Part shown: one piece after another, positions 3 to 19,632 of the stretch | Layout of the letters: each line of letters begins with the position of its first letter | How positions within the stretch are numbered: the stretch's first letter is position 1 | Source of the DNA: a virus | Direction: 5' to 3' (one strand) | Length of the DNA: 22,315 nt | IMG/VR virus record: IMGVR_UViG_3300045885_000314 | Location: 1 to 22,315 of that record | Translations under genes and position numbers: made by a program | Notes under the pieces: generated by a model | Database searches by the model: none | Seen by the model: the letters and a program-made list of their open reading frames with translations, nothing else | Told to the model about the DNA's origin: nothing

Positions 3-1778
3 CAGAAGCAGGCCGAGCTGGCGACCGCCGCCATCAGATATGTAGTCGAGGGCGAACTCAAGGAGCACCGTTTTCCGTTCTCGGTGGAGATGGGCGCGGT
101 AGATGGTATTGGCGGCGTCGAGATGATGCTGATTGAGGGCGACCACGGAGACCCTGATGTCGGATTCGCTATTGTCGATACTGACAGTTTCTTTTATGAT
201 CCTCGCTCTTTTAGGCACGATTTTAGTGATGCTCGCTATATGGGGGTAGGTAAGTGGCTCGATGTGGAAGATGTGAAGGATTTAGTCCCGGAGAAGGCGG
301 ACGAGATTGATGGTGAGAGTGGCTCAGGATTTGAACTGACTTCCGCGCCTGACAGGGAGCGCTACTGGTTCAATGATGAGGGCGCGGATCAGCAGAAGCG
401 CATTCGGGTAGTTGATATCTGGTACAAACATCGAGGTGGATGGTGCTGGACGCTGTTTACGGGCTCGATGAAGCTTATGGAGGGGAAGAGCTACTTCTAT
501 GATGAGCGCAACAAGCCGATCTGTAAGTACGTTATGTTTAGCGCTTTTGTGGACCATGATGGGGATCGCTACGGCTTTGTAAGGGGCCTGCGGAGTTCGC
601 AGGACGAGATCAATCAGCGCCGGTCCAAAGGACTTCACGAGCTGGTCTCGCGGAGGATCAAGGCCGAGGACGGGGCCTTCGCCGACATAGAGCTTGCTCG
701 GAAGGAAGCCGTGCGCCCTGATGGAGTGGTGATCTATAACAGAGGCTTCGAAATGGAGTTCGACGATCAGGCGCGGATCGCGAACATCGAGGGTCAACTG
801 AAATTCTTGGAGGACGCGAAAAATGAAATCGAAAACTTCGGTCCCAATCCCGCACTTATCGGACAGGGCCTTGAGTACAAGTCCGGACGAGCCATTAACC
901 TTCTTCAGCAGGCTGGAATTGCAGAGCTTGGACCTTTCGTCATCGGGATTAAGAATTGGAAACTTCGCATTTATCGTGCGATTTGGTCAGCCATCCAGAG
1001 ATACTGGAAGGCAGAGCGATGGATACGAGTGATAGACGATGAAGGGTTTGCGCAGTTCGTGCAAGTCAACGGGGTGGGAATAGACGAGCGCACCGGCTTC
1101 CCGATCATGGTTAATGCGCTCGGCAATCTAGATGTGAACTTCGTACTCGAAGAGGGCCCGGACGAAGTGAACATGATGGCCGATGCCTACGACACGCTGA
1201 TCGCGCTGGCGACACAGGGCGCTCAGATCCCACCGGCCGTGTTGCTCGAACTAGCACCACTCCATGCGAGCGTGAAACGGAAGCTGCAGGCTATGATGCA
1301 GCGGCCTGATCCGATGCAGCAGCAACGGGCGCAGATCGAGATGCAACATGGTGTGGCCAAGGTCCAAGAGACTCAATCCAAGGCCCAGCTGAACCAGGCC
1401 AAGGCTGCTGAGTCGGCCCAGGGTGGCGCGCACGGTATGGTCGAGCGTCAGATGGACGCCGCCATGAAAGAGCGTGAGATGCAACTGAAAGAGCGCTCCG
1501 AGGCGGTCAAGGTGCAAGCCAAGATGGCCGAGACGCGCGCGAAGCTGCAGGGCCAAGCTATGGAGCAGCGGATCAAGCTGCAAGGCCAGGCACAGCAGAA
1601 CCGAATGAAGCAGCAAGAGACCGCAATGAAGGTTCGCGGCACGATGTTCGAGAATCAGCAGAAGCTAGAGATGCAGGGGCAAGCCCACCGGCAGAAGATG
1701 ATGGAGACTGCTGAAGAACATCGCCGCAAGATGGCAACGTCACAGCCAGTGCGCCCAAAGGGCGGGGGTCAGTCATGA
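3..1778 (+). CDS. P22-like portal protein, 5' end outside window
   Basis: Dodecameric portal ring at the capsid vertex: the DNA entry and exit channel and docking site for terminase and tail. The frame is open to the left edge (first whole codon at 3), so the ATG at 84 is internal and the N-terminus lies upstream. Visible features match the P22 portal family: a DTDSFFYDPRSF segment followed by DFSDARYMGV, then DGDRYGFVRGLRSSQDEINQRRSK, GFEMEF, and the PNPALIGQGLEYKSGRAINLLQQ segment typical of this family. From roughly residue 395 of the part after position 84 the protein becomes a long Gln/Met/Lys-rich helix with 11-residue repeats, comparable to the C-terminal helical barrel of P22 portal, ending in a short basic PRPKGGGQS tail. 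The gene heads the late operon; terminase should lie just upstream. The family is seen directly from motifs; the barrel assignment is inference. Confidence 0.93.
   Translation, partial: QKQAELATAAIRYVVEGELKEHRFPFSVEMGAVDGIGGVEMMLIEGDHGDPDVGFAIVDTDSFFYDPRSFRHDFSDARYMGVGKWLDVEDVKDLVPEKADEIDGESGSGFELTSAPDRERYWFNDEGADQQKRIRVVDIWYKHRGGWCWTLFTGSMKLMEGKSYFYDERNKPICKYVMFSAFVDHDGDRYGFVRGLRSSQDEINQRRSKGLHELVSRRIKAEDGAFADIELARKEAVRPDGVVIYNRGFEMEFDDQARIANIEGQLKFLEDAKNEIENFGPNPALIGQGLEYKSGRAINLLQQAGIAELGPFVIGIKNWKLRIYRAIWSAIQRYWKAERWIRVIDDEGFAQFVQVNGVGIDERTGFPIMVNALGNLDVNFVLEEGPDEVNMMADAYDTLIALATQGAQIPPAVLLELAPLHASVKRKLQAMMQRPDPMQQQRAQIEMQHGVAKVQETQSKAQLNQAKAAESAQGGAHGMVERQMDAAMKEREMQLKERSEAVKVQAKMAETRAKLQGQAMEQRIKLQGQAQQNRMKQQETAMKVRGTMFENQQKLEMQGQAHRQKMMETAEEHRRKMATSQPVRPKGGGQS
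1542..1640 (+). repeat. 33-nt in-frame repeats encoding 11-residue units in portal tail
   Basis: Three consecutive 33-base units encode KLQGQAMEQRI, KLQGQAQQNRM and KQQETAMKVRG. The first two are near copies; the third is diverged, and a weaker copy (KLEMQGQAHRQKM) follows. Hendecad spacing is typical of straight or right-handed coiled coils, as expected for a portal barrel. Confidence 0.6.
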
Positions 1779-1829: not shown

Positions 1830-2024
1830 ATGCCACCAGTTAGTGAGGCCCAAAGAAGGGCCATGGCAGCAGCAGCGCACGGCCACAGCACACTAGGTAT
1901 TCCGGTCAAGATCGGGAAGGAATTTATCGAGGCCGACAAGGGCGGGCGCCTTCCACAAAAAAAGCCGAACAAACATATGGCTAAAAGCCTAGCCGACCTC
2001 AAGTCCGGGGAATACAAGAAATAG
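1830..2024 (+). CDS. Small phage protein ending in SGEY motif
   Basis: A 64-residue basic protein beginning [20 protein letters not shown], followed by [19 protein letters not shown]. The pattern [22 protein letters not shown] is one I know from small proteins near the head genes of many phages; its function is unknown to me. Its C-terminus, DLKSGEYKK, shares the [L/M]xxG[D/E]Y motif with three other proteins here (ends at 3579, 6623 and 14130). An upstream ATG at 1815 would add five residues but lacks a binding site. The stop overlaps the Shine-Dalgarno of the next gene (TAGGAGCGC). Likely a late-expressed virion or assembly accessory by location only. Confidence 0.75.
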
Positions 2025-2033
2025 GAGCGCACG

Positions 2034-3227
2034 ATGGGCCTGTTAGAGGATTATCTCGCCGCGCAGCAGGCTAATTACCTCGCTGGGCGAAACGCGCAGC
2101 TTGGAGGGGTGAGCCCCGCCGGGACCGCTATTAGTACTCCTACGACGACCACTAATATCGAGCCTATTCTACAGGCAATGGCGGCCCAGATCCCGACTGG
2201 CGGGGTGGCCAACCCACTGCAAAATCAGTACGCAAATCGCATAGCTACAACGACGAGTCCGGCTGGAACGACAGCTACCGCGCCACAAGTCGGCGGATTG
2301 TACGGGCAGATAACGAGCGACCCAGCTACGTCGGCGCTGTTGGCGCAGAGGCTACAAGAGGCGGCGGTTTCGCGCGTTCTCAGGAGTGCTGGTCTGGGGC
2401 AACTGACGCCTCAGCCGTTCGGCACAGCTAGTACGGGTACTGAAGCTGGGACTGGTCCTGGGGCTAGAGGAGGCGATACTAGTGGTATTGGCGCAGGTTC
2501 ACCTAATACTGGAGGCGTCGGTTTGTCTGCGGGTGATGCCGTCACTGGCGGGTTTGGCGCTCTCGGTCCTGCTGCTAATGCTACATCGGGCGGCTTCACT
2601 GCCAGTTCGCTTGGCGAAGCAATAACCGGCTCTAATCCTAACGTCGGTGTGGAAGGTTTTAATGCTAGTCAGGGTATAAATCCCTCGCTGTCTTCTGGGC
2701 TGGAGGGCTTTGGCCCTACTGTCGGGTTCGGCCCAGATGTTAGTAATCCTACAGCTCTCGCGGGCGAAACTCCATCTATTAACGTTGGTGTTACTCCCAG
2801 TGGCGAGCAGGTCAGTATCAATCCTTCTACCGGCGTCGTCTCTGTCGGCGGCGAACCTGTAGGGGTGATTGGCGGTGAGACTGATGGAGGCGGTGGTGCC
2901 ACTGGTGGGGGTGGCTACGGCGGCGAGGGTATGGGCATCGGCCTCGGGGGTGTGGCAGATGGCAGCTCGAACGCGGGCATCGGCGGGCCAGCGGGGACGG
3001 GTGCTGTAGGCGGCGCGGGCGACGCGGGGCAGGGGACCGGCGGTCCCGGCGAGGGCGATCAGTTCGGCAATCAGTATGTCGTGGGCGGACGCGGTCCTCC
3101 AGATAGCAAGCGCGTGGGGCTGACCGTGTCGCCGGGCGAGCTAATCACGGTGACGCCGCCCGGCGATCCTAAGGGCCGAGGACTCGATGACATCCTGAGA
3201 ATAATGGCGACGATGCGGAGGGGCTGA
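2034..3227 (+). CDS. Gly/Thr/Ser-rich virion-type protein with tail-like C-terminus
   Basis: A 397-residue protein. The N-terminus (MGLLEDYLAAQQANYLAGRN) is helical; residues of about 30-345 are low complexity, rich in Gly, Thr, Ser, Ala and Pro, and become almost pure Gly/Ala around 275-340. The last 50 residues are ordered: VVGGRGPPDSKRVGL, then SPGELITVTPPGD. This resembles the GG.gg.DS..V.f.atPGE.V.V.tP signature that I associate with C-termini of phage tail or tape-measure-like proteins. The gene follows the preceding ORF with AGGAGCGCACG before the ATG and is followed one base later by the next gene. The function is not recognised; a structural or injected virion protein is the likeliest reading from location and tail motif. 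Confidence 0.8.
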   Translation: MGLLEDYLAAQQANYLAGRNAQLGGVSPAGTAISTPTTTTNIEPILQAMAAQIPTGGVANPLQNQYANRIATTTSPAGTTATAPQVGGLYGQITSDPATSALLAQRLQEAAVSRVLRSAGLGQLTPQPFGTASTGTEAGTGPGARGGDTSGIGAGSPNTGGVGLSAGDAVTGGFGALGPAANATSGGFTASSLGEAITGSNPNVGVEGFNASQGINPSLSSGLEGFGPTVGFGPDVSNPTALAGETPSINVGVTPSGEQVSINPSTGVVSVGGEPVGVIGGETDGGGGATGGGGYGGEGMGIGLGGVADGSSNAGIGGPAGTGAVGGAGDAGQGTGGPGEGDQFGNQYVVGGRGPPDSKRVGLTVSPGELITVTPPGDPKGRGLDDILRIMATMRRG

Positions 3228-3228
3228 C

Positions 3229-3579
3229 ATGCCTGTTAATCCAATAACTGGAGCGCCACTGCCCTATTCGCAGGGCGGGGGCGCGCCGATGGTCGGGCCG
3301 CAGCAACCTCAAGCTGCGCCAGGGCGTATGCCGATGTGGGCTGGTGGTGGCGCTAATCCAGGGTTTGGGCAGGCGCCGGGAGGGCCGCAGGGAGCGCCTC
3401 CACCAGGGATGCCCGGAGCGCCTACTGGGCCGCCAGGAATGCCGCTCGGGCTGACGCCAGAACTGCTGGCTATGATCCAGGCGCGTATGGCCAAGAATGA
3501 GTTTCGGTCGGGGCCAGAGGATAGTCTGATCCCAACCGGGGGAGGCGGGCTCGCCTCCATGAAGTCAGGAGACTACTAA
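3229..3579 (+). CDS. Pro/Gly-rich small protein ending in SGDY motif
   Basis: A 116-residue protein with an extended Pro/Gly/Met/Ala-rich region (about residues 1-78), a short predicted helix (LTPELLAMIQARMAKNEF, about 79-96) and a Gly-rich end. It terminates exactly at MKSGDY, the same C-terminal motif as in the proteins ending at 2024, 6623 and 14130. A GGAGGGGCTGAC stretch inside the end of the previous gene provides the ribosome binding site, and the two genes are one base apart. No enzymatic motif is seen. Its place just before the scaffold suggests a role in head assembly or as a minor virion protein, but this is inference from position only. Confidence 0.75.
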   Translation: MPVNPITGAPLPYSQGGGAPMVGPQQPQAAPGRMPMWAGGGANPGFGQAPGGPQGAPPPGMPGAPTGPPGMPLGLTPELLAMIQARMAKNEFRSGPEDSLIPTGGGGLASMKSGDY

Positions 3580-3609
3580 CGCTCGCGTCAGCGACATGAC
3601 GCACGCACG

Positions 3610-3628
3610 CCGACCGCGACAGCGTCGG
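3610..3628 (+). other. Hairpin in 87-base gap before scaffold gene
   Basis: CCGAC and GTCGG flank a short loop, with two further inner GC pairs possible around a bulged C. Only TTT follows, so termination would be weak at best. It lies in the longest gap between plus-strand genes and could separate or process transcripts. Confidence 0.3.
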
Positions 3629-3666
3629 TTTCGTAAGCGCAACGAGACTGCGAAAGGACGAGGAAG

Positions 3667-4449
3667 ATGTCAGGTGATGCAGCAGCGGAACAGCAAGAAC
3701 TGTTCCAAGGGGCGTTAGGCCCGGAGCCAGCAGCGGCAGAGCCCGCTTCTGCGCCCGCGCCAGAACCAGTCCCCGCATCCGCTCCGCAACCCGAGGGTGT
3801 GCCGAGTTGGCGATTGCGGGAGGAGGCCGACGCCCGCAGGGCGGCCGAGGAACGTGCTCAGGTGTACGAGCAGAAGCTCAAAGAGTACGAAGCCCACCTC
3901 GCGCGGCAGCAGCCGCAAAAGGTGCCCGACTGGTTCGAGAACCCCGACGCCGCCATGCAGGAAGCACTGGTGCGCTGGATGGGTCCGATCGTCCAGGATC
4001 AACGCAATCAGGCCATCTACAACTCGCGGCTCGTCGCGGGACTGGTACATGGCCAGGATAAGGTTGACGCGGCCGAAGCTGCATTCCTGCAGGAACATCG
4101 AAGTGGAACGCTGGATAAGATGGACTATGAGCGGGTGGTCCAGTCGCCTAACCGCTATGACGCGGTGGTGAACTGGCACAAGCGACAGAATATCGTGTCC
4201 ACCGTAGGGAACGATCCGAATGAGTGGTTCGTAAAGACGTTGGACCAGCATCTGGGTGATCCCCGGTTCCAAGCCGCTGTCATGGAGCGTATCCGTGGCA
4301 GCGCCGCGACTCGTCCTGGCGCTACGCGCCTCCCACCGTCGCTCTCCGGAAAGACCGCCTCTGTCGGTAATGCCGACGACGGAGCCGGAGGCGATCTCAG
4401 TGACGCGAGCCTCTTCAACTTCGCGAAGCCGGATCGAAGGGGCCGGTAA
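3667..4449 (+). CDS. Scaffolding-like protein
   Basis: A 260-residue acidic protein immediately before the major capsid gene, the usual place of the head scaffold. Residues of about 1-45 are an Ala/Pro/Glu-rich disordered stretch (PEPAAAEPASAPAPEPVPAS). Residues of about 46-82 are a charged coiled coil (LREEADARRAAEERAQVYEQ). A PDWFENPDAAM segment and helices follow, and the tail is basic (KPDRRGR). Disorder, then coiled coil, then basic C-terminus is the general architecture of phage scaffolds, whose positively charged end binds the coat protein. A GGACGAGGAAG stretch precedes the ATG. Assignment rests on composition and synteny, not on a unique motif. Confidence 0.75.
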   Translation: MSGDAAAEQQELFQGALGPEPAAAEPASAPAPEPVPASAPQPEGVPSWRLREEADARRAAEERAQVYEQKLKEYEAHLARQQPQKVPDWFENPDAAMQEALVRWMGPIVQDQRNQAIYNSRLVAGLVHGQDKVDAAEAAFLQEHRSGTLDKMDYERVVQSPNRYDAVVNWHKRQNIVSTVGNDPNEWFVKTLDQHLGDPRFQAAVMERIRGSAATRPGATRLPPSLSGKTASVGNADDGAGGDLSDASLFNFAKPDRRGR

Positions 4450-4467
4450 AGAGAAAGGGCTGCGGCC

Positions 4468-5625
4468 ATGGCCGTAACCACAATTGAAACTAACAATAAA
4501 CTCATCAAATTCACGCAACAGATCAATCGTGAATTTGTGAGGGAGAATATGTTCTCGCCCTATATGGACGAGGGCCTAAATGCGATCATCCGACTGCGCT
4601 CGGAGTTGAAGAGCGGCGGCGAGGATATGAATATCCCGCTCGTCACTCGGCTCACGGGCCAGGGCGTTGCCACCGAGACGTTGGTCGGCAACGAAGAGAA
4701 GATCGACAACTACGGTATGCGCCTCCGCATCGAGTGGGCGCGCAACGCCGTGGTCACGACGAAGGCTGAGTCCCACAAGGACTCTGCGGATATCTTCGGT
4801 GAGGCAAAGCCCCTCCTATCGGATTGGGGCAAGGAGCTACAACGCGATGAAATTATCGCGGCGTTCATGGCTCTGCCGAGCGAAACGCTCCCCACTTCCA
4901 GCGGAGGCGTGCGTGTTAACGGTATCCAATACGACTTGGCCAGTGCTACTCAACGTAACACCTGGCTCACTGACAACAGCGATCGCATTCTCTACGGAGC
5001 AGCTGTTGCCAACGCAGTGTCTGGTGTACACGCCACGGCTCTTGGGCTCGTGGACGCGACAGCGGACAAGTTCACTGCTACGAACCTTGCAACCCTGAAG
5101 AGGGTTGCGAAGCTCGCGAGTCCACGTATCCGACCCTACAAGACCAGGGACGGGTACGAGTACTTCGTGGCGTTCGCTGGAACGAATACCTTCCGCGACC
5201 TCAAGTTGTCGCTGGAGACGATCAACAAGGACGCGCGGCCCAGAGAGGGCCGCCAGACCAACGGCGCTCCAGACAATCCGATCTTCCAGGATGGAGATCA
5301 GATCTATGACGGTGTGATCGTCAGGGAAGTCCCTGAGATCAGTTCATTCGTCACGAACGTCTGGACCGACCTCAAGACCGCGGGTGGCACTTCCAGCCGC
5401 GTCGAGCCGGTGTTCTTGTGCGGCCAGCAGGCTATGGTCTTTGGTTGGGGTCAGATGGCGAAGCCCACGTTCCGCAAAGAGGACGACTACGGCTTCATCA
5501 CTGGCGTCGGCATCGAGATGGCCTATGGCGTCGCCAAGATGTTCAAGAAGCATCCGATGACGGGTACCGCACTCAAGCAGTGGGGTGTCGCCACTGGGTT
5601 CTATTCAGCCGCAGTCGATGCGTAG
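4468..5625 (+). CDS. Major capsid protein, N4 gp56/DUF4043-like
   Basis: A 385-residue capsid subunit expected to have the HK97 fold. Family landmarks: ETNNKLIKFTQQINREF near the N-terminus, MNIPLVTRLTGQGV at about residues 52-65, then LVGNEEKIDNY and RLRIEWARNAVV at about 70-95, followed by the K.....D...A...LSDWGKELQRDE helix. This pattern matches the N4 gp56-like capsid group rather than P22 gp5, although the surrounding tail genes are P22-like. The length is within the usual 350-430 range. It is followed closely by a decoration-like protein and then a terminator, as expected for the most highly expressed virion genes. Confidence 0.9.
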   Translation: MAVTTIETNNKLIKFTQQINREFVRENMFSPYMDEGLNAIIRLRSELKSGGEDMNIPLVTRLTGQGVATETLVGNEEKIDNYGMRLRIEWARNAVVTTKAESHKDSADIFGEAKPLLSDWGKELQRDEIIAAFMALPSETLPTSSGGVRVNGIQYDLASATQRNTWLTDNSDRILYGAAVANAVSGVHATALGLVDATADKFTATNLATLKRVAKLASPRIRPYKTRDGYEYFVAFAGTNTFRDLKLSLETINKDARPREGRQTNGAPDNPIFQDGDQIYDGVIVREVPEISSFVTNVWTDLKTAGGTSSRVEPVFLCGQQAMVFGWGQMAKPTFRKEDDYGFITGVGIEMAYGVAKMFKKHPMTGTALKQWGVATGFYSAAVDA

Positions 5626-5634
5626 GAGGGCAAC

Positions 5635-6027
5635 ATGGTAACAAGTCTCAACAACGCCAAGCCCGCCCACGACTTCCAGTATCAGGCGGTCAACTACATC
5701 CGTGGCACCATCACCGCTCTGGCGAGCGGCGCGACGGTGACTGCGGCGATCGGTCGGCTTCCGCCGGGCGCGGTCATCTGCGGGATCAGCAACAGGGTGT
5801 CCACTGCGTTCAGTGGTGGCACGCCACTGCTGACCCTCGGCGACAGCACCGACGCGGGCAATGACAATATCACTGCGACGCTCGCCGAGGCGTCGGCCAG
5901 TGAGCTGGTACAGCCGTTGGCGACGTTCGCCATGCCGCTTACGGCTGAGGTCGAGGTGTGGGCAAACCTTAGCGGCGGTGCGACCGCTGGAAGTGCCACC
6001 ATCAGCGTTCTGTACACCAATAGCTAA
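5635..6027 (+). CDS. Probable capsid decoration or head-fibre protein
   Basis: A 130-residue, Thr/Ala/Gly-rich protein predicted to be all beta. Features: VNYIRGTITALASGATVTAAIGRLPPGAVICG, a TLGDSTDAGNDN loop, and a closing GSATISVLYTNS strand. The pattern 'lPaGavI...v.v...F.gg...l.lGds.d' is shared by small beta-rich proteins encoded directly after capsid genes in many phages. AGGAGGGCAAC gives a strong ribosome binding site. It shares the transcript segment upstream of the 6038 terminator with the capsid gene, consistent with high copy number on the head surface. The role is inferred from synteny and predicted fold. Confidence 0.7.
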   Translation: MVTSLNNAKPAHDFQYQAVNYIRGTITALASGATVTAAIGRLPPGAVICGISNRVSTAFSGGTPLLTLGDSTDAGNDNITATLAEASASELVQPLATFAMPLTAEVEVWANLSGGATAGSATISVLYTNS

Positions 6028-6037
6028 CCCCCACTGA

Positions 6038-6065
6038 GGGGAGGGTAAGGCCCCTCCCCCTTTTT
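6038..6065 (+). terminator. Rho-independent terminator after capsid genes
   Basis: An 8-bp perfect GC stem (GGGGAGGG at 6038-6045 with CCCTCCCC at 6052-6059), a 6-base loop and a C plus five T residues. It lies 11 bases after the decoration gene stop. It probably reduces readthrough into the tail genes. Confidence 0.9.
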
Positions 6066-6078
6066 CAGGGAGAGACGA

Positions 6079-6363
6079 ATGACCGTACTGCCAAAGGCGC
6101 CACCGGATAAGCCGGGAGATACGCCAGTAGAAAATCCGTGGGCCTTCATACCGAAGGCGCCATCGCAACAGCCCAACGCGCAGGGGCCGGCGCAGAAGCC
6201 GGGCGAGCCGCTCGCGGTGACGTTCAGGGAGCTGCCGCCGGCACCAGAGCCGCAGGCGAAGAAAGGGAAGCCCGAAGATACACCTGGGCGGGGTCCTGAT
6301 CCGGATCACAAACCCGGCGAGGGGCGAGGTCCGCCCCCTAAAGTCTCCCATTCGAAAAAATAG
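6079..6363 (+). CDS. Pro-rich hypothetical protein
   Basis: A 94-residue protein made almost entirely of Pro, Lys, Gly, Glu and Ala, for example PKAPPDKPGDTP and PPAPEPQAKKGKPED, ending in basic KVSHSKK. No fold or motif is recognised; it should be disordered. AGGGAGAGACGA before the ATG is a good ribosome binding site, and the gene starts just after the terminator. Plus-strand codons remain GC-rich with no stop, and neighbours abut it closely, which supports a real gene. The function is unknown. Confidence 0.6.
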   Translation: MTVLPKAPPDKPGDTPVENPWAFIPKAPSQQPNAQGPAQKPGEPLAVTFRELPPAPEPQAKKGKPEDTPGRGPDPDHKPGEGRGPPPKVSHSKK

Positions 6364-6398
6364 GGACGAACATACGTATCATTCACTGAGGTGTGAAG

Positions 6399-6623
6399 AT
6401 GCACGAGCAATCTGAAACCATCCAGACGCCTCGCGGAACGTGGATCAATGTCTACGGTCTGCGGACGAGAACTCCAGGGCTGCGTCTGCCCGGCTCGGGC
6501 GAATACAACACCTTGGAGGAAGCCGTCGAGGCCGCAAAGATGCGGTCTCAGAGTGGTGGTAGGTCGGGGTTGGGCCAACCGAAAAACATCGACAACCTGA
6601 TGCCTGGAGACTACGGGAGGTAG
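6399..6623 (+). CDS. Small phage protein ending in PGDY motif
   Basis: A 74-residue protein. The core (TPRGTWINVYGLRT, then GSGEYNTLEEAVEAAKMRS) resembles small phage proteins with a 'Y.TleeAveAAk.RS' helix, whose function I do not know. It ends DNLMPGDYGR, matching the C-terminal [L/M]xxG[D/E]Y motif of three other late proteins here. A GTG two codons upstream (6393) is possible, but GAGG at 6388-6391 is spaced 7 bases from the ATG at 6399 and only 1 from the GTG, so 6399 is chosen. GGGAGG within its final codons serves the next gene, which begins one base after its stop. Confidence 0.75.
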   Translation: MHEQSETIQTPRGTWINVYGLRTRTPGLRLPGSGEYNTLEEAVEAAKMRSQSGGRSGLGQPKNIDNLMPGDYGR

Positions 6624-6624
6624 G

Positions 6625-6969
6625 ATGGACATCTACCGCACGAGGGAACAGCTTATTCTGGAGGCTGCAGATAAACTGCAGCTTGCTGGGACGGGGCAGC
6701 CGCTCGAGCCGGAGTACCGAGACAAGATCAACTCGAACATCGAGCCGTTGCTAGCGCAGTTGACGCGCGACGGGATCTGTGAGGTCTCCAACTCCAATCA
6801 GATCCCTGTCGAGTGGTTCGATCCGATCGCGGGGCTGCTCGCCAATGTGAGCGCGCCGCTCGGCGGCAAGAACTACGACCCGATGATCCGCGACTACTAC
6901 GAGCGCACGCTCCGTCGAATAACCTCGGCGAAGCCGGACTATGCGGTGCTCGAAGGGCAGTACTTCTGA
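6625..6969 (+). CDS. P22 gp4-like head-tail connector / tail accessory factor
   Basis: A 114-residue helical protein. It opens YRTREQLILEAADKLQL, followed by PEYRDKINSNIEPLLAQLTRDGI, then a conserved-looking IPVEWFDPIAGLLANVSAP and a C-terminal YERTLRRI segment. This fits the P22 gp4 head completion factor, which binds below the portal and allows gp10 to attach. It is shorter than P22 gp4 (about 166 residues), mainly at the C-terminus, and no lysozyme-like motif is visible. Its stop overlaps the start of the gp10-like gene (TGATG), so the two are translationally coupled, as the assembly order would favour. Confidence 0.75.
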   Translation: MDIYRTREQLILEAADKLQLAGTGQPLEPEYRDKINSNIEPLLAQLTRDGICEVSNSNQIPVEWFDPIAGLLANVSAPLGGKNYDPMIRDYYERTLRRITSAKPDYAVLEGQYF

Positions 6970-8381
6970 TGCCTAACATCACGTTCCCCATCTCGTCGGC
7001 GCCAGGCCCCCGACCCCAAGAGTCGGGGGGTCGGCTGGTCAATGCGTTTGTCGAGAAGGCGCCCACTGGCGCTCCGTCGGAGACTATTATTCGGCGATCG
7101 CCTGGACTGTTGAAGGTGGCGCTGGCGGAGGGGTTCGAGCACACGCGGGGGTTCCTCGATTGCAACGGGACGCTGCTGTGGGTGCTTAATGATCGGGTCT
7201 GGTCAGTGACCCCGGACTTTGTGGCCACTGATGTCGGAGAACTCCTCGGAGATAAGCCCGTCACTCTCGCGCGGAACAATGCAGTGGTGCCACAGAACGT
7301 GGGAGTGACAGAGAATGGTTGTTTTAATCTATTTACCGATGCCGCTCCTACACCGTTCGCGGACACGGACTTGCCAGAAAATCCTACGAGCGTGTGTGAC
7401 TTCGAGGGTTATTTCATTTGGTCCTTCGCCACAGGACACGTCTACGCTTCGGACCTTAATACGGTTGAGGTCAATGCGCTGTCGTTCAACATCGAGCAGG
7501 GCAATAATGTTAGGCGGGTAGTGCGGTTCGCGGGGCGCGTGTTTGCGCTGGGCGACAAGTGGACCGGCGTCTACAAGAACGCTGGAACCATTCCATTTCC
7601 GCTTGCGCGTGAGGCCACGATCCCTCGCGGGATCATCGGAACGCACGCTGTATCGGGATGGGAGGCTGGTTGGGCTAATGAACTCATTTGGGCAGGGGAC
7701 GATTTCGTTGTTTACAGGTTGCAGGGCTATAAGCCTATCCCGGTATCCACCGATGACGTTAGTCGAGACATACAGCGAGCTGTGCTCGCCGGACGGAGAG
7801 ATTTCATCGAGGCATTCTGTTACATGTATAATAATAATGCCTTCTGGGTATTACAGTGTCACGACCTGTGGACTTGGGAACTCAATATTAGCACTGGAGC
7901 TTGGAACGAACGCAAGTCATTCCTCCAAGAGAACTGGCGCGCGAACAGGTGCGTAAGGATATTCGATCGGTGGCTCACCGGAGGTGATGCGGGCGAGCTG
8001 TTCGAGATTAGTGGGGACTATTTCCTCGAGGACCAAGACCCGCTGATCTGGCTGGTCGAGACTGGAGTGGTCACTGCGTTTCCGCAGCGGATGCACATTC
8101 CGAATGCCAGCTTTTATATCACGGCGGGCGTCGGAGATTATACACTGAGTCCTGAACCAGTGGTTGCGATTTCGTGGTCGCTAGATGGGGGCCACAGCTG
8201 GGGCTATCCGGTGCTGCGCAAGCTCGGCGCCCCCGGCAAGACCAAGTTCTATCCGTCGATCCGCAACAGTGGGCTCTCGCGGGGGCACGGCGTTCGCTAC
8301 CGACTGATGGTGTCGGACCCAGTGCACGTTGGCTGTAGCGGCGGGGTGATCGGACCTGTTCCAAGGGGAGTGGTTGGCTGA
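6969..8381 (+). CDS. P22 gp10-like packaged-DNA stabilisation (tail hub) protein
   Basis: A 470-residue protein, almost exactly the length of P22 gp10 (472). The N-terminus carries the family pattern GGRLVNAFVEKAP followed by a RRSPGLLKVA segment. Repeated beta strands follow, with VCDFEGYFIWSFATGHVYAS, ...GDKWTGVYKNAG and WAGDDFVVYRLQGYKPIPVST as family-like blocks. gp10 forms the tail hub below gp4 and plugs DNA after packaging. The start at 6969 overlaps the upstream stop (TGATG); the frame is also open upstream to 6813, but that part lies inside the gp4-like gene. It ends in another TGATG overlap with the next gene. Confidence 0.88.
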   Translation: MPNITFPISSAPGPRPQESGGRLVNAFVEKAPTGAPSETIIRRSPGLLKVALAEGFEHTRGFLDCNGTLLWVLNDRVWSVTPDFVATDVGELLGDKPVTLARNNAVVPQNVGVTENGCFNLFTDAAPTPFADTDLPENPTSVCDFEGYFIWSFATGHVYASDLNTVEVNALSFNIEQGNNVRRVVRFAGRVFALGDKWTGVYKNAGTIPFPLAREATIPRGIIGTHAVSGWEAGWANELIWAGDDFVVYRLQGYKPIPVSTDDVSRDIQRAVLAGRRDFIEAFCYMYNNNAFWVLQCHDLWTWELNISTGAWNERKSFLQENWRANRCVRIFDRWLTGGDAGELFEISGDYFLEDQDPLIWLVETGVVTAFPQRMHIPNASFYITAGVGDYTLSPEPVVAISWSLDGGHSWGYPVLRKLGAPGKTKFYPSIRNSGLSRGHGVRYRLMVSDPVHVGCSGGVIGPVPRGVVG

Positions 8382-8584
8382 TGCCCATACCCGATCCTTT
8401 GCTACACGAGGAGCCGTTTGTCGAGCAGGAGACGCTCGTCGTCACGCGCGAGTGGTACTCATGGCTCGTGGCACTGATCAATGAACTCAAGGCAGAACTC
8501 GCGGGCGCTCGCACCGATATCACGGCCCTTCAAGCCACGATCGCAGATCACGAAGCTCGAATTACAGCTTTAGAGCCCCCATAG
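8381..8584 (+). CDS. Short coiled-coil protein at the tail-needle position
   Basis: A 67-residue protein with an N-terminal proline-rich segment (MPIPDPLLHEEPF), a REWYSWLVALINELKAELA helix and a heptad-repeat stretch (TDITALQATIADHEARITAL) to the end. It starts on the stop of the gp10-like gene (TGATG overlap). In P22 the next gene after gp10 is the trimeric coiled-coil needle gp26 (233 residues), so this could be a very short functional counterpart or simply a small tail accessory. No specific family is recognised. Confidence 0.7.
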   Translation: MPIPDPLLHEEPFVEQETLVVTREWYSWLVALINELKAELAGARTDITALQATIADHEARITALEPP

Positions 8585-8593
8585 GAGGCCACG

Positions 8594-9631
8594 ATGGCCG
8601 GCATCTTCGATGCGTTCACAGGAAATGCGCAGAGCGCAGCGCAGCAGAACGCGCGTTCGTTCTTAGACGACATTCGGTTCGAGACCGGTCAAGAACTTGG
8701 GCAGGGCCTGGGCCAGGGACTTGGCTATCTACAGGGCTCGCTGAACCCCCAACTTCAATCGCTGCAGAATGCCTTCAATACAGCCAATCAGCAGTACGGT
8801 ACCTATGCCAATGCTGGAGTGGGCGCAGTCAACACTGGGGCCAATCAGGCCGCTCAGTCCGTCTACAGCATGCTCAACCCGGCGATCGCCGCGCTTAATC
8901 CGGCCGTTACTCAGTATGGGGATGAGCGGGCGCGTGCTGCTGCTATGTCCAACAGCGCGCTCGGTCTGACTGATCCAGCGGTAGCACGGAACGCGTTCAG
9001 GACGAGCCCGGCCTATCAGTTCATGCTGGATGAGGGCCTTAACGCGATCGCGCGGAACGCCAACGCGGCGGGCATGGTCGCCAGTGGCAACCAGATGCGG
9101 GAGTCGCAGAAGTATGGAAGCGGGCTCGCCGATAAGGAGTGGGACGATTGGCTGAACCGATTGATGGGGCGGGAGCAGTTGTACGCGCCGCTGCAGTTGC
9201 AGGGGGGCGCGAAGCTTGCCGACACCTACAGTGCGGCAGGACGAACGCTCGCGGATCTGCAGTCGCAGGCCGGTCGATACACCGGCAACATCTATGCACA
9301 ACAAGCACGTGATCTCGCGACCATCGCCAACCAGTTCGGCGGCGCCCAGGCCGGTATCTTCGGGCAGAATGCGCAGGCGCAGGCCGACTTCCTCAGGCAG
9401 CTGCTCGGCCTCAAGACTCAAGCCAACGTCGGGCTGGCTGGCGGCGAGGCGCAGACCTTCATTGGGCAGGGCGATGCTGCAGCTCAAGCCTCTAAGAACA
9501 TCTTTGATGCTCTTCTTGGAGCGGCCAAGCTTGCGGCTGGTTCGGGGGGCCTCGGTAGCCTATTCGGTGGCGGTAGTACTGGAGGCACCATCAACATAAC
9601 TGGTGCTAACGACGTAACGAATGTCGCTTAA
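8594..9631 (+). CDS. Ejection (DNA transfer) protein 1
   Basis: A 345-residue Ala/Gln/Gly-rich, mostly helical protein. Residues of about 136-185 carry a block I recognise from phage DNA transfer or internal virion proteins: RTSPAYQFMLDEGLNAI, then MVASGNQMRESQKYGSGLAD followed by EWDDWLNRL. The C-terminus is Gly-rich (SGGLGSLFGGGSTGG). P22 gp7, gp20 and gp16 are packaged in the head and expelled into the cell envelope to conduct DNA; this is the first of three consecutive large genes at the same place. AGGAGGCCACG precedes the ATG. The role is inferred from family pattern plus synteny. Confidence 0.82.
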   Translation: MAGIFDAFTGNAQSAAQQNARSFLDDIRFETGQELGQGLGQGLGYLQGSLNPQLQSLQNAFNTANQQYGTYANAGVGAVNTGANQAAQSVYSMLNPAIAALNPAVTQYGDERARAAAMSNSALGLTDPAVARNAFRTSPAYQFMLDEGLNAIARNANAAGMVASGNQMRESQKYGSGLADKEWDDWLNRLMGREQLYAPLQLQGGAKLADTYSAAGRTLADLQSQAGRYTGNIYAQQARDLATIANQFGGAQAGIFGQNAQAQADFLRQLLGLKTQANVGLAGGEAQTFIGQGDAAAQASKNIFDALLGAAKLAAGSGGLGSLFGGGSTGGTINITGANDVTNVA

Positions 9632-9643
9632 AGGGAGCGTCCG

Positions 9644-11077
9644 ATGGCTTTCAGCATCAACATTCCTGGGCCGAAGCTGATCGATCTCGGTCTGTATGGG
9701 AAGCTCTCTGACATCGGGTCGGCGTTCAAAGAGAGCCGAGACGAGGCACTGGCCAAGGATGTCTTTGCCAACATGCGCTCGGACGATCCGGCCTCAGTGG
9801 ACGAAGCTCTTCAAAGACTTGCGCACACAAAGTATGCTCCGATTATACAGCGGATAGCGGAGAGCCATCAGCAAGCGAAGGAGCGAGCAGCAACTCAAGA
9901 TATCGCACGGGGCCATCTTGGTGTTTCACAAGCAAATCTTAAAATACAGCAAGATCTGCAGGAGCAAGCAAAAAAAGATAGAGAGTCTTTTGATAAATTG
10001 TGGGGAGGAATGGAGCCTGCGACACCAGCAGCGCCAACTGCTCCAGCCGCCCCTAAGCCAGTTTTTCCGGAGCTTCTTGAGCCGCCTCCAGGCCCAGGAG
10101 CCGCTTTGCAAAATATGCAGCCAGGAGAAGGCTACGATATCAGTGCTGCAAAGCGTACTTCAGCTGTAGGAGCTCCAGCTACGGAAGCTCCGACTCCTTC
10201 TCCTCCAAGTCTTGCTAATATGAGCCAAGAACAAGCTATGCGATTGCTGGCTCATCCAGGCGTACCGGACAGCTTTAAAAAGGCCATAGAGTTCAGACTT
10301 CGACAGATTGAAGCGGAGCGAAAAGAAGAAGGGAAAGATAAGGAGGCCGAGTCACTTGGAACGGCACGAGGCAAAACGCTTAATGAGACATTTGGCGAGA
10401 TTAGAGATCAGGAACAAAGAGCTAATCGAAATCTCTACAACATTGAGCGACAGCAGCAGCTTATTAAAGAAACTCCTACTGGTTTCGGTTCTGGAGTCGC
10501 GAACTGGATCGACAGAGCTATGGTTGGCACAGAGGAGCTACAAAGAAACCGTTTAGGTTTCTCTTCGCCGTTTATGGGAAACCTGTACGAGAATGCTAAG
10601 AAACGAGCCGCGAACTATGACGAGCTAAGAGGTCTACAAACTCTCTCAGTTTATGATATGCTTCAGGGTTTTGGTAAAGGTACAACTAATGAAGAACGAA
10701 AAGTAATGGCACAGGCATACGCCGACAGTGCCAAAACTACTGAGGGTAATCTGGCCTCGCTCAGATTTCTGAAGCGCGTCAGCGAGCTAGATAAGGAGGA
10801 GTCAGCTCTAGTTCGTAGATACTATGCTCATCAGCAGCAAACAGGTCAGAATATAAAGCAAGAGGATATTGATATACTTAGAAATCGCGTTAGGGAGAAA
10901 GGCAATGCAGAACTTAGAAGGCAATACGAGATTGATAGAAAGAATAATCAAGTAGCTGAAGTAGCTGGCTCCGACAAAAAAACTGAACCAACAGCCGTAC
11001 CGTCTCCTGCGGGCGCTCCCGACGCCGAGGGATGGACGCCAATACCAGGTGGCGGTCGAATTAGGGTCAAACCATAA
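9644..11077 (+). CDS. Probable ejection protein 2
   Basis: A 477-residue charged helical protein. Residues 1-105 are helix with coiled-coil character (EALAKDVFANMRSDDPASVD); residues of about 120-200 are an Ala/Pro-rich linker (PATPAAPTAPAAPKP); residues of about 200-440 are long helices (EQAMRLLAHPGVPDSFKKAI, then RFLKRVSELDKEESALVRRY). The tail GWTPIPGGGRIRVKP resembles a short C-terminal strand motif of other phage virion proteins. It matches P22 gp20 in length (471) and place. The middle of the gene is distinctly more AT-rich than its ends. Its TAA is at 11075-11077 and the next gene's ATG starts at 11077. No enzymatic motif was seen. Confidence 0.75.
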   Translation: MAFSINIPGPKLIDLGLYGKLSDIGSAFKESRDEALAKDVFANMRSDDPASVDEALQRLAHTKYAPIIQRIAESHQQAKERAATQDIARGHLGVSQANLKIQQDLQEQAKKDRESFDKLWGGMEPATPAAPTAPAAPKPVFPELLEPPPGPGAALQNMQPGEGYDISAAKRTSAVGAPATEAPTPSPPSLANMSQEQAMRLLAHPGVPDSFKKAIEFRLRQIEAERKEEGKDKEAESLGTARGKTLNETFGEIRDQEQRANRNLYNIERQQQLIKETPTGFGSGVANWIDRAMVGTEELQRNRLGFSSPFMGNLYENAKKRAANYDELRGLQTLSVYDMLQGFGKGTTNEERKVMAQAYADSAKTTEGNLASLRFLKRVSELDKEESALVRRYYAHQQQTGQNIKQEDIDILRNRVREKGNAELRRQYEIDRKNNQVAEVAGSDKKTEPTAVPSPAGAPDAEGWTPIPGGGRIRVKP

Positions 11078-14000
11078 TGCCCGTTTTCGAGGTCCAAGGT
11101 CCGGACGGAAAGACCTATGAGATGGAAGGCCCGAGCATGGATTGGGCCGTCTCGACGTTCAAAGGACTTGGTAAAGGACCATCCGAGTCGTCTAATAAAG
11201 CGGCTGATATGCTTGTGCGCTATGCCACTGGCGGCGCGGGCATAAAGAACGCTCTGGAGAAGGCTGGCGAGCACGCCAAAGGATTGATGACTGGAGAGGT
11301 TCCGCCCACGCCCGAGAACGTACTGCCTGCAGCAACACTTGGGCTGCCGGCCTCGCCCCTCCCTGTTAAGTTTGGATTTAGAGGACCGCCTGGTGCAGGA
11401 CCAAATCTATATGGAGCGCCAGCCGCTTCTCCAGCAGCGTCAATAGCTCCAGTGGGACCGCCTACCGCGCGGACACTGGGAGAGGTTAAGGAAGCTGCAA
11501 CTGAGGCATTACTTCAGCCCACCGGGACCATTCCCTCGCAGGGTAAGGCTGGCTCAGTTATTCAGCGCGCAATGGAACCAAGGACACCTCCCAGAACTCC
11601 GAGTCCTGATGACTGGATGGGTACGCCTGGAGGACCAACTAAGCCAATGGCTCCAGGGTCCCTTGATGAATGGATCTATCAATCTAAGGGAGCGCCCTCC
11701 GAGGAGTGGATACGACGAGCACGGACGCCAGGAGATGACTGGACAGCCGGAATGCCCAAGGTGTCGAAGGCTCCCGAGGCTCCCGCTGCGATCGAGCCCG
11801 TACCGCAGGCAATTAGAGATCTCTTCCCTGGAAGGGGCGGAGATGCTATGGGGCACCTGCATGACCTTGCTAAGAACGATCCTGTTACTCTTGGACAGGT
11901 CATGCGAGCGGTGCCTGAAGCAGAACGGCCTATAGTGCAGGGAGCCTTCTCAGCCAAATTGGGTGGGGGCGCCGGCGCAAAAGGCCCAGCTGGAATTGAT
12001 CCAATAGCTCTGATCCGTGGCTATGGAGAATTGCCTGAGGTTAGCAGAGGTATTATATATGGAGAGGCTGGTAAATCAAGTATTCGTACGAGTCTGGACT
12101 CTATTCTAAATGACTATACGACTATAGCAAAGCTTGGTGTCTCGAAAGAGGGAGGTGCTGCTATACAACCACTAGAGCTTCTAGCTAATATTGTAAGGCA
12201 GGGACAGTATGGTCATTTTGGACACGCTATACTTAGAGATTTTACGAGTCCACATTTTGCCGCATCTATAGCTATGTGGTCTAGGGCGGTTGTTCGGTGG
12301 CTGACTAGCAAGACTCCTGCATCTATTGCCGCGCTCACGATTGCCACACGCAACCTAGAGAACACGATCGGCTCGGCCGAGGCTGGCACCCGGTCCATAG
12401 CCGACATCAACAAGCCACTTCCAGAGGAGGAGGAGGCTCGACGACGCATCCGCGAGCGGCTCCTCGACAGCGGGCGAACCGAGCTTCCGATAGAGAGAAT
12501 GCGCCAGTCTACTATGATGCAGGATAGAAGAGGGGTCACACCGCCACGTCCAGATATAAGAGATCTTCTTCCAAGGCAGCCGTATCTTGCAACAGGAGAT
12601 TTCAGGAGGCGTATACTAGGAGAGATACCAATACCAATAGGGCCGATGGAAACTGATGCTGGCGTCCCTGATATCAGGCCCAGAGGCCGCAGGGGCTTCG
12701 CGGAGGGCGGGCAGTTTGAGGTGCCTGACTATGATCCATTCGAGCGTGCGGCCCAACGTAATCGTGCTGGTGTTATAGGGCGTCAGGAAGGACGTACCTC
12801 ACAGGTTATTGATGCTATTGGAAGAGGACTTGCTCATGAGGGTACCAGAATTTTAACCATTCCAAAACGCTTTATTGAAGCTGGAATGATCCCTGACGAG
12901 GAGGATCGACGAGAGGCTATTCGTAAGGTGGGAGGGGAGTTGGCGGGAACGGGCGCCGAGCTGATGTTTGGGCCGAAGGGCACGGGCACGAGTGCGAAGG
13001 TTGTAGGATCTTTTGCTGGAGCTAAAGGCCCAGTTAATCAATCCTTTGCTAATAAAGTAGCAGATCTTCTTCCTGCGGAGTGGACTGTTACGCCGAGTAA
13101 TGTGTCCAGTAATTTCTATATACATGGCCCTAATAATAAGTTTATTGGGATTATAGGTCATACTGCTGCTCTCAAAGATAAGAAATATCTTTTCACTCCT
13201 GCAGCTACTACTGGTGGTGTCAAATCTAAATGGGGAATGTCTCTTGAAGAACTGTTACCAGTTATGCATGGAAATAAAGGCCCGACACCTATACAGGAGC
13301 CGATACATAAAGGCGAAATGACCAAAGCTGAGATGAAAGAGTGGTCGGACAAAGTAGCTGCTGATATTGGAAAAAAGATTACGTTTGAAGATATAAAAAC
13401 TCATGCACACGAGACAATTGCGAAGGAGCTGATTACGAAAGAGCCCGAAAAGATGAAGATTAGAGGTAAAACCTATGTTAATGAAGATAATAAATGGGTT
13501 GGAATAGAGGAATCAAAACAATATAAGCCAGAGCACAGAACCAATCTTGCTGACCTACCTCCAATGCTGCCAGAGGCCGAGCTTGAGGCAGCGCGGCAAG
13601 CAGGAGGATATACAACACCTGCTTATCGTGGGCGCCAGGGCGGCTCTGCGGGGCGGAGGGAGCCAGATGTTGGTGGAGAACCTATTTTCTCGGCTGCTAA
13701 TCCAGATCTTGCGGGGCTTTATGCAGGGATTAATCCAGATTTAACTCCTTACAAGGGAAGCCAGCTGTTCGGAGGGCATCAAACTCAGCCGCTGCTTCTA
13801 GACACACGAAACTATCTGAAATTTGATGCTCAAGGAGCTGATTGGAGTACTGCTCAGCAAAGGGCATTTCCGAAGGCTCGCAAAGAAGGTAAATCTGGAG
13901 TGATAATGTATAATGTGCTGGACGAGCCCATTGGTAATTACGCTGGACAGACCGTGCTCGGTCCACAGACAGTCTATGCTACGTTCGATCCTAAGACCCG

Positions 14001-14130
14001 TAAATCAAAGTTCGCGCGCCAATTTGATCCAGAGAGTAGAGATATGTTAAAGGCTCGGCTCCTTGGAAGTGATCCAACTCTCGCGGGTATCGCGACGCTT
14101 GATCCAGGAGACTATGAGGGGAGACGATAA
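11077..14130 (+). CDS. Large ejection-type protein with ADP-ribosyltransferase-like C-terminus
   Basis: A 1017-residue modular protein, third in the ejection gene series. Residues 1-30 are a small strand-rich cap (MPVFEVQGPDGKTYEMEGPS) common at the start of phage virion proteins. About 85-250 are Pro-rich repeats with W/D motifs (DDWMGTPGG, DEWIYQSKG, EEWIRRAR, DDWTAGM). About 255-440 are helical. About 540-640 contain FAEGGQFEVPDYDPF and an amphipathic or Gly-rich segment. About 645-830 are a separate mixed domain with Lys-rich helices. About 847-1000 resemble a phage/polyvalent-protein ADP-ribosyltransferase-like fold: PAYRGR, IFSAANPDLAGLYAG, PLLLDTRNYLKFD, KSGVIMYNVLD, TVYATFDPKTRKSKFARQFD. 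The C-terminus TLDPGDYEGRR carries the motif shared with three small proteins. Catalytic competence is unproven; the third catalytic Glu is not obvious. Confidence 0.78.
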   Translation: MPVFEVQGPDGKTYEMEGPSMDWAVSTFKGLGKGPSESSNKAADMLVRYATGGAGIKNALEKAGEHAKGLMTGEVPPTPENVLPAATLGLPASPLPVKFGFRGPPGAGPNLYGAPAASPAASIAPVGPPTARTLGEVKEAATEALLQPTGTIPSQGKAGSVIQRAMEPRTPPRTPSPDDWMGTPGGPTKPMAPGSLDEWIYQSKGAPSEEWIRRARTPGDDWTAGMPKVSKAPEAPAAIEPVPQAIRDLFPGRGGDAMGHLHDLAKNDPVTLGQVMRAVPEAERPIVQGAFSAKLGGGAGAKGPAGIDPIALIRGYGELPEVSRGIIYGEAGKSSIRTSLDSILNDYTTIAKLGVSKEGGAAIQPLELLANIVRQGQYGHFGHAILRDFTSPHFAASIAMWSRAVVRWLTSKTPASIAALTIATRNLENTIGSAEAGTRSIADINKPLPEEEEARRRIRERLLDSGRTELPIERMRQSTMMQDRRGVTPPRPDIRDLLPRQPYLATGDFRRRILGEIPIPIGPMETDAGVPDIRPRGRRGFAEGGQFEVPDYDPFERAAQRNRAGVIGRQEGRTSQVIDAIGRGLAHEGTRILTIPKRFIEAGMIPDEEDRREAIRKVGGELAGTGAELMFGPKGTGTSAKVVGSFAGAKGPVNQSFANKVADLLPAEWTVTPSNVSSNFYIHGPNNKFIGIIGHTAALKDKKYLFTPAATTGGVKSKWGMSLEELLPVMHGNKGPTPIQEPIHKGEMTKAEMKEWSDKVAADIGKKITFEDIKTHAHETIAKELITKEPEKMKIRGKTYVNEDNKWVGIEESKQYKPEHRTNLADLPPMLPEAELEAARQAGGYTTPAYRGRQGGSAGRREPDVGGEPIFSAANPDLAGLYAGINPDLTPYKGSQLFGGHQTQPLLLDTRNYLKFDAQGADWSTAQQRAFPKARKEGKSGVIMYNVLDEPIGNYAGQTVLGPQTVYATFDPKTRKSKFARQFDPESRDMLKARLLGSDPTLAGIATLDPGDYEGRR

Positions 14131-18870: not shown

Positions 18871-19049
18871 GGCGCGCTCCTGATGGCGTAACGCGCTAGG
18901 AACTCGCGTAACTCTGCAATTCGCTGCGGAGTATTCGATGCTGTAACGATCTCGTGGAAAGGATCCGGGCAAGGCTGGACCTCGCCTTCATACTGTATCG
19001 CTGGGTGCAGATGCGGGTACGGTGAGTCGCATTTCGGACAATTAGTCAT
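18867..19049 (-). CDS. Tiny Cys-containing protein C between exonuclease and polymerase
   Basis: A 60-residue protein beginning MTNCPKCDSPYPHLHP. A CPKC pair, nearby His residues and one later Cys (QPCPDPFHE) suggest a small zinc-binding knuckle, though the usual second CxxC is absent. The C-terminus, REFLARYAIRSAP, ends with the IRSA peptide also found at the ends of the two preceding genes. Start (overlap with the previous stop) and end (overlap with the polymerase ATG) are both ATGA. AGGAG within the end of the upstream gene is its ribosome binding site. Function unknown. Confidence 0.7.
   Translation of the reverse strand: MTNCPKCDSPYPHLHPAIQYEGEVQPCPDPFHEIVTASNTPQRIAELREFLARYAIRSAP
18868..18888 (-). 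repeat. Junction repeat, copy 3 (diverged)
   Basis: Twenty-one bases agreeing with copy 2 at 19 positions. It contains the polymerase ATG, the AGGAG ribosome binding site (18877-18881) and the codons for the shared C-terminal IRSA peptide of the preceding gene. Confidence 0.7.
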
Positions 19050-19378
19050 TTCGCGCTCCTGATGGCGGCGGCGATCCGTTGACCAAAATGCAGGGCCGGC
19101 CCCCATTCCTGATTCTCCGCAATCTTCGCATCCTTCTCCCTTTGCGCCGCTGCAACACACTTTAGTTCGGCCTGACATTCCTGAAGCTGCCGCCATTGGG
19201 TGTCATGATAGTTTTGCCGTTCCGCCGCTGCATGGCGATCGAGGGCGCGGGCAAGTTGTACGGGCGTGCAAAGGCAGGGATGATCGTGAGCGCCCGGTAT
19301 CTCGTGTTCGTCGGCAAACAGAGTGCGAAACGCCTCCCGCATTGCGGCCTCGGACGGCACTGCACTTGGCTCGGTCAT
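19046..19378 (-). CDS. Small helical protein B between exonuclease and polymerase
   Basis: A 110-residue protein: MTEPSAVPSEAAMREAFRTL, a CLCTPVQLARALDRHAA segment, then a charged helix (ECQAELKCVAAAQREKDAKI) and the tail FGQRIAAAIRSAK. The tail is identical over nine residues to that of the preceding gene. The ATG at 19378 overlaps the previous stop (ATGA) and has AGGAG 6-7 bases upstream; the frame is open further to 19561 but that would run through the previous gene. Not recognised. It looks like the small, often host-directed or accessory proteins that accumulate in phage replication regions, but no role can be claimed. Confidence 0.7.
   Translation of the reverse strand: MTEPSAVPSEAAMREAFRTLFADEHEIPGAHDHPCLCTPVQLARALDRHAAAERQNYHDTQWRQLQECQAELKCVAAAQREKDAKIAENQEWGPALHFGQRIAAAIRSAK
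19047..19074 (-). repeat. Junction repeat, copy 2
   Basis: Twenty-eight bases, identical to copy 1 at 27. Read on the minus strand it encodes IAAAIRSA, contains AGGAGCGC as the ribosome binding site and ends in the ATG of the next gene. Confidence 0.85.
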
Positions 19379-19632
19379 TTGGCGCTCCTGATGGCGGCGG
19401 CGATAGCAGTTCCATCCGTGTAGATCGGCCTGTGGCCCTCGTCTTGAAATCTTCGCGCGAGCCGCTCCCGCTCCTGTGCGGCGGCGCGCTCTAGGGCGGC
19501 GGTGGTGTTGTCTAGGATGGATTGGCATTGGCACATACCACGGCTGAAACCTGCTGGACATGCTGCGCCACTAAACTCCTCACAGAAATCCTCGCCGTGC
19601 GCATCCAGTGCCCGCGCCCTCCAGTCAGTCAT
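19375..19632 (-). CDS. Small protein A between exonuclease and polymerase
   Basis: An 85-residue protein. Its N-terminal half contains Cys residues (EDFCEEFSGAACPAGFSRGM, then CQCQ), the second half is a helix (TTAALERAAAQERERLARRF), and the end is GTAIAAAIRSAK. The final nine residues equal those of the next gene. GGGG about 9 bases before the ATG is a modest ribosome binding site. It ends in an ATGA overlap with the next gene. Not recognised; possibly a metal-binding or disulphide-containing accessory protein. Confidence 0.65.
   Translation of the reverse strand: MTDWRARALDAHGEDFCEEFSGAACPAGFSRGMCQCQSILDNTTAALERAAAQERERLARRFQDEGHRPIYTDGTAIAAAIRSAK
19376..19403 (-). repeat. Junction repeat, copy 1
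   Basis: Same structure as copies 2 and 3: shared C-terminal codons, embedded AGGAGCGC ribosome binding site, then the next ATG. One mismatch to copy 2. Confidence 0.85.

Follow-up and report, generated by a model that had tools for sequence, protein, structure and literature searches.

Encapsulin cargo-loading peptides are usually C-terminal and sometimes N-terminal, and fusions of shell and cargo also occur (PMC7355545). The minimal signal of the M. xanthus encapsulin is LTVGSLRR (PMC5959871). In phage T4 the capsid targeting sequence (CTS), a short peptide common to different internal head proteins, ensures that they are incorporated into the prohead (PMC5694885). The P22 scaffold may be needed for the assembly of gp16 and gp20 into the procapsid, according to the accessible part of PMC12005531, and that part describes no short peptide shared by gp7, gp16 and gp20. 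Phage polyvalent proteins, which are multidomain or ART-bearing, are predicted to be packaged, and fusions with portal or MuF domains are known (PMC5512222, accessible part).

The DNA analyzed here (the window, 22,315 nucleotides, IMG/VR record IMGVR_UViG_3300045885_000314) is a contig from a soil phage with a short tail; the phage's genes for portal, capsid and head closure are similar to their counterparts in P22- and Pam1-type phages. The portal protein is encoded at 3..1778 on the plus strand (phrog_156, E 7.7e-58), with the 5' end of its gene outside the window. The scaffold gene (3667..4449, plus strand) is named by its position directly before the capsid gene (4468..5625, plus strand; phrog_334, E 7.5e-53). 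The major capsid protein is related to that of cyanophage Pam1, with 36% identity, and matches a solved relative, 7eel, at E 6e-144; the phage major capsid protein that it matches is known to have the HK97 fold. Genes were called with a simple caller of our own, and the contigs are fragments.

Four window proteins carry a peptide, T1, with the consensus L-x-[P/S]-G-x-Y plus basic residues, and a second peptide, T2 (IG[RN][QKRS]xY), stands on unrelated proteins of a sister clade. The encapsulin peptide is probably the nearest working analogue, and the T4 CTS may be regarded as the phage precedent. As with encapsulins, a short peptide occurs on different proteins encoded near an HK97-type shell gene, here on about 11 families for T1 and about 9 for T2, counts that are approximate; families C, D and F were recognized by eye and not with curated models. 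It is also mostly C-terminal and sometimes N-terminal (in genomes G002, G003 and G010). The M. xanthus signal LTVGSLRR and the T1 form LKPGDYRRR both fit L-x-x-G-x-hydrophobic-R-R, and T2 fits it less well; the likeness is short and may be due to chance, and we treat it as a lead only. Encapsulin peptides, in contrast, bind a luminal pocket of the shell itself and suffice for loading, whereas this phage has a scaffold and the partner of its tag is putative, and the window encodes portal and head-closure proteins, that is, a DNA-packaging head. The tag system may thus work like encapsulin loading, but it is not an encapsulin system. The T4 CTS differs in being an N-terminal propeptide that is removed by proteolysis, whereas the T1 copies in the window are C-terminal; PHROGs recognized no prohead protease among the window proteins scanned, which were part of the genes of a partial contig. 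The window shares a P22/Pam1-like portal and capsid with P22, but differs from it in the shared peptide, and the ejection-slot orthologues of the window's relatives have no tag. A general loading peptide is not described in the accessible part of PMC5512222 for polyvalent proteins, and most tagged proteins here are small.

A peptide shared by unrelated phage proteins

All four carriers are encoded on the plus strand. A small basic protein of 64 aa (1830..2024; 69 aa with the start at 1815), which belongs to family A (PHROG 16759), ends in LKSGEYKK (1998..2021). A Pro/Gly-rich protein of 116 aa (3229..3579), encoded just upstream of the scaffold gene and giving no PHROG or Pfam match, has MKSGDY (3559..3576) at its very end. 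A 74-aa protein (6399..6623), encoded between the cement-like and adaptor genes, carries LMPGDYGR (6597..6620); in two relatives the corresponding stretch encodes an N-terminally tagged protein of 241-243 aa. The fourth, a protein of 1017 aa (11077..14130) that blastp identifies as an extended ejection-slot protein, ends in LDPGDYEGRR (14098..14127). The preliminary description had placed the peptide at the C-termini of the genes ending at 2024, 3579, 6623 and 14130 and on the plus strand only; all four termini are present in the sequence, and no minus-strand gene of the window has T1. The motif is tighter than the pattern first given, [LM]xxG[DE]Y, because every window copy has P or S as the third residue of its core.

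The shared ending exceeds chance: [LM]xxG[DE]Y ends 4 of the 28 called window genes but none of 1329 background phage proteins, drawn from related prophages, Pam1, CBW1004C-Prop1, untagged relatives and minus-strand genes. At random internal "ends" 0.014 matches are expected in 28 genes (P ~1e-9), a post hoc figure since these four genes had themselves supplied the pattern; the real test comes from the relatives. That the peptide is shared is secure.

In family A the window protein, in its 69-aa form, matches phrog_16759 at E 1e-8 over residues 6-44 only, which excludes the tail. The model of the 64-aa form has two well-predicted helices and a tail region of lower confidence (56-61), and is compatible with a flexible tail without proving one. 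Residues 256-433 of the 1017-aa protein match the ejection-slot proteins of relatives by blastp, and its C-terminal part is absent from these proteins, which are 565-590 aa long. No close relative of the whole protein was found in IMG/VR, no close relative of its last 218 residues among phage records, and no significant domain match. An ART-like reading of residues ~850-990, made by eye, was supported neither by Pfam, nor by NCBIfam, nor by a low-confidence model; we do not claim an ART domain, because the single-sequence structure had a pLDDT of 43 and was not used.

T1 is conserved at the level of the peptide and not of the DNA. In a set of 23 distinct T1 tags, glycine is encoded by GGA 10 times, GGT 9, GGG 3 and GGC once, tyrosine by TAC 14 times and TAT 9, and leucine by five codons. 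The presence of GGAG at the motif in three window genes was correctly noted in the preliminary description; the same letters lie at the G codon in 10 of the 23 T1 tags and in none of the T2 tags. No called gene start lies within 40 nt of the G codon in 17 of the 23, and, as had been remarked for the gene ending at 3579, there is none within that distance of the G codon of MKSGDY. The three window genes that do have a close downstream start also have a separate Shine-Dalgarno-like stretch nearer to that start (TAGGAG after the stop at 2024, GGGAGG before 6625 and GGGGAG before 14130). A Shine-Dalgarno or translational coupling signal is therefore rejected, and the earlier judgment that ribosome binding fails as an explanation is borne out by the varying codons, the 17 tags that lack a nearby start and the N-terminal copies.

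These N-terminal copies have their cores at residues 7-8 (G003, MPSMTELRPGAYRG; G010, MPDLSELRPGAYRS; G002, MPKSLDELISGEYRR), and two low-complexity proteins (in G004 and G007) have internal cores. The claim that the motif is C-terminal thus holds for all four window copies but not strictly for the relatives, and a strictly C-terminal tag is rejected. A T1 profile scored at 13 bits or more gave, per 100,000 positions in the T1 clade, 441 C-terminal, 43 N-terminal and 13 middle matches. The C-terminal rate is high by construction, because the profile was built from C-terminal tags; the information lies in the remaining figures and in the controls, although two of the five N-terminal matches, one in a scaffold fragment and one in a minus-strand ORF, are spurious. 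In other clades there were zero matches at 13 bits at either end. An ejection-slot protein (L004:10208-11338, also in L006 and L008) has an internal LQSGQY[AG] that resembles the T1 core and is probably unrelated to it.

Two tags in two capsid clades

Relatives were sampled by taking the surroundings of 80 genes closely related to the capsid gene. In these loci the T1 tail is found on further proteins, mostly between portal and scaffold, and a scan of C-termini, as the preliminary description had suggested, reproduced T1 on the 11 or so unrelated families. When C-terminal 14-mers were compared between all non-homologous genes of each contig, with no pattern supplied, nine pairs across all loci scored 30 or more, and seven of these were T1 or its counterpart in the second clade. 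The controls yielded four N-terminal and two internal-segment pairs, with no tags among them. T2 was evident in the same search in G021, where proteins of 148, 133 and 1679 residues have the common endings GLLQIGRQIYGGPR, GLMQIGRQSYGGEA and RRPMRIGRQSY. One protein of L050 carries two copies of T2, several T2-tagged proteins are acidic, and the giant T2 proteins had no match in Pfam or NCBIfam.

The strongest C-terminal pair in the whole survey that was not a tag comes from the minus strand of the window, where three consecutive overlapping small genes (18867-19632) end in AIAAAIRSAK, AIAAAIRSAK and ARYAIRSAP, the first two forming the pair. Also on the minus strand, an HNH-type ORF (20911-21396) begins with MSDIPKARDVADPIYKIVLVGEAWGER and the gene after it (19893-20927) with MLPVYKIVIVGEAYGEHEERER; the two openings are the same, as if an endonuclease ORF had been inserted near the start of the polymerase-related gene at 19893-20927 and the first codons repeated.

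Regular expressions identified 32 T1-tagged and 24 T2-tagged distinct proteins among 1810, all on the plus (virion) strand, where shuffled tails or internal cuts predict about 1 and 0.1-0.3, respectively. The expressions were tuned on the same data, and families rather than proteins are the independent units because homologues are counted separately. The T1 matches include at least one false positive, an L026 adaptor that ends in AAGNYF, and the adaptor ends VQEAEYF and RTAEYF were set aside as belonging to the adaptors' own conserved C-termini. Neither tag was found in any of the 769 proteins of prophage relatives. A search of all IMG/VR contigs for GID-x-L-x-[SP]-G-D-Y gave 22 stretches, most of them on contigs already known as relatives; on four of the five other contigs (L098, L101, L104 and L108) small genes of family A or B bear the tag.

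The T1-tagged families include A, B (PHROG 2423), C, D, E (PHROG 20603) and F, with small basic proteins among them, and further carriers are an ART-PolyVal-like protein of 346 aa (in L063; E 1.3e-5, below Pfam's cut-off), the extended ejection-slot protein of the window and a fusion of portal and transglycosylase. The fusion (950-994 aa; last residues ILSGRY or ILSGKY) consists of a P22-type portal (PF16510) and an SLT transglycosylase domain. A P22-type portal with a C-terminal SLT transglycosylase is encoded at L023:1081-4059 (PF16510 and PF01464 in L023) and also in L030, L031, L101 and L108. T1 was not found on capsid, scaffold, adaptor, terminase or replication proteins. In families A and B the tail is an addition, since the PHROG matches cover the body and stop before it, while in family E the PHROG profile extends into the tail region. 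Some T1 families also have a common linker, RRGGID, before the core.

A tree built from 70 capsid proteins groups every T1 locus in a single clade (support 100/99). Within it, L014 and L020 have no T1-ended gene in the set searched but do have an internal T1 core. The T2 loci fall in another clade (100/99), which includes a few entries with no tag, possibly because the contigs are partial. Neither tag was found in the related viral loci L026, L029, L033, L043 and L057 or in Rhizobiales prophages. The alignment of family A shows one body that carries T1 in the first clade, T2 in the second and no tail in L081-L083. That orthologues keep the tail, as the preliminary description supposed, is therefore true within a clade; outside it the tail is absent or replaced by another tag. 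Capsid genes 64-70% identical to that of the window (L180-L188) occur mostly in Rhizobiales genomes (Sinorhizobium, Rhizobium, Mesorhizobium, Neorhizobium, Chelatococcus and Bradyrhizobiaceae), and one is on a short contig of a Betaproteobacteria MAG; this occurrence hints at the host group.

The scaffold as a candidate partner

Of the families compared over 14 T1 and 8 T2 genomes, just three (portal, scaffold and capsid) occur in every genome. Cement is present in all but one of these genomes, terminase in 7 of each clade, and the adaptor, head-closure and ejection families differ between the clades. We found no gene family exclusive to tagged genomes that might serve as a receptor. The scaffold, a candidate receptor, is a single homologous family in 37 of 37 genomes compared. 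The scaffold has 52 columns that are conserved within both clades, and 20 of them distinguish the two; the figures are 11 of 206 for the capsid protein and 48 of 245 for the portal. Scaffold residues 148-166 (4108..4164, plus strand) form a block that is conserved within each tag clade and differs between them: all nine doubly conserved columns of this block, which was picked post hoc after the differences had been seen, distinguish the clades, versus 11 of 43 elsewhere.

The block contains a T1 look-alike, LDKMDYER (4111-4134, plus strand). When the T1 profile was run over the untagged positions of 16 T1 genomes, the block site (LDPADYER and variants) ranked first in 10 and second in the window and in L020; two others have it third, one has it sixth and one has it far down. 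Since the scaffolds are homologous and some contigs nearly identical, the sixteen rankings amount to a single coincidence or a single case of mimicry. By plain local alignment the likeness is significant for a few tags only, and it is clearer with the profile. The T2 profile found no comparable match in T2 scaffolds, so that scaffold mimicry is unsupported for T2. The look-alike could have arisen by chance. On these comparisons the scaffold is nevertheless the partner that we prefer for the tag.

A docking peptide and its rivals

The preliminary description had proposed a sorting or docking tag. This remains the best-supported class of explanation, because the carriers are unrelated, the tag is exchanged as a unit between clades and the recognizable carriers are of kinds expected inside the head; the strictly C-terminal position is the part that was lost. 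We infer that the tag binds something, that the partner is the scaffold, portal or capsid protein, and that packaging is the result. A short linear peptide on unrelated proteins, at either end, would be collected by one common partner. It would dock on a surface of the assembling procapsid, most likely on the scaffold or on a surface shared with it, and the cargo (small basic proteins, enzymes and the extended ejection protein) would be enclosed in the head, kept there, and then leave with the DNA and be injected. To this reading, in which each clade has its own docking peptide and cargo enters the procapsid by means of it, most probably via the scaffold or a surface in common with it, we give about an even chance. 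Among the large tagged proteins are kinds predicted or known to be carried in the head: the P22-portal/SLT fusion and the ART-PolyVal match, the latter below Pfam's cut-off. Against loading, a portal does not have to be recruited, yet the portal-SLT fusions retain a tag, if a diverged one, and some T2-tagged proteins are acidic and unexplained. The ejection-slot orthologues in relatives are untagged, and therefore the tag is not required for every ejected protein.

A stronger version is tentative and, in our estimate, rather unlikely: a modular, clade-specific loading code in which the terminal peptide imitates a segment of the phage's own scaffold, whatever protein acquires it assembles together with the head and reaches the host, and one clade could change its code only by re-tagging all of its cargo.

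The foremost rival places the action of the tag in the infected cell rather than in head assembly, as a ligand of a host factor or as a stability or degradation signal. Short terminal peptides commonly have such roles, and the T1 and T2 clades might infect different hosts. Yet the tags occur only on virion-strand genes, mostly in the region from terminase to adaptor, and on no replication genes, and the internal and N-terminal copies are ill-suited to a C-terminal degradation signal; we consider this explanation unlikely, though it should be kept in mind. Less probable still is that the tag links its carriers with one another or into a common complex, with packaging incidental: tagged genes are often adjacent, but some genomes have a single recognized tagged gene and the tagged proteins have no common body. 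It is very improbable that gene ends have simply been spread by recombination, with no function. The RRGGID linker shared by some families is what such spread might leave behind, but the cores persist despite much synonymous change, T1 and T2 on family A are in step with the capsid tree, structural genes have not been reached, and the decay expected of a neutral tag among close relatives is not seen in the T1 clade. A cause at the DNA level (the Shine-Dalgarno sequence of the following gene, or some other site at gene ends that serves regulation or recombination) can be nearly discounted, for although GGAG coincides with the G codon in 10 of 23 T1 tags and basic Arg codons (for example AGGAGG) may double as a ribosome-binding site in some genes, it is largely refuted by the synonymous codon variation, the 17 T1 tags with no start within 40 nt, the T2 tags free of GGAG and the N-terminal copies.

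To our knowledge, few simple signals that mark head-loaded proteins are known outside the capsid targeting sequence of T4. If the docking reading holds, a peptide that can be read from sequence would allow cargo to be predicted in this group of phages, including proteins of unassigned function. A reporter fused to the peptide could test loading, and the exchange of T1 for T2 on family A is a natural swap experiment.
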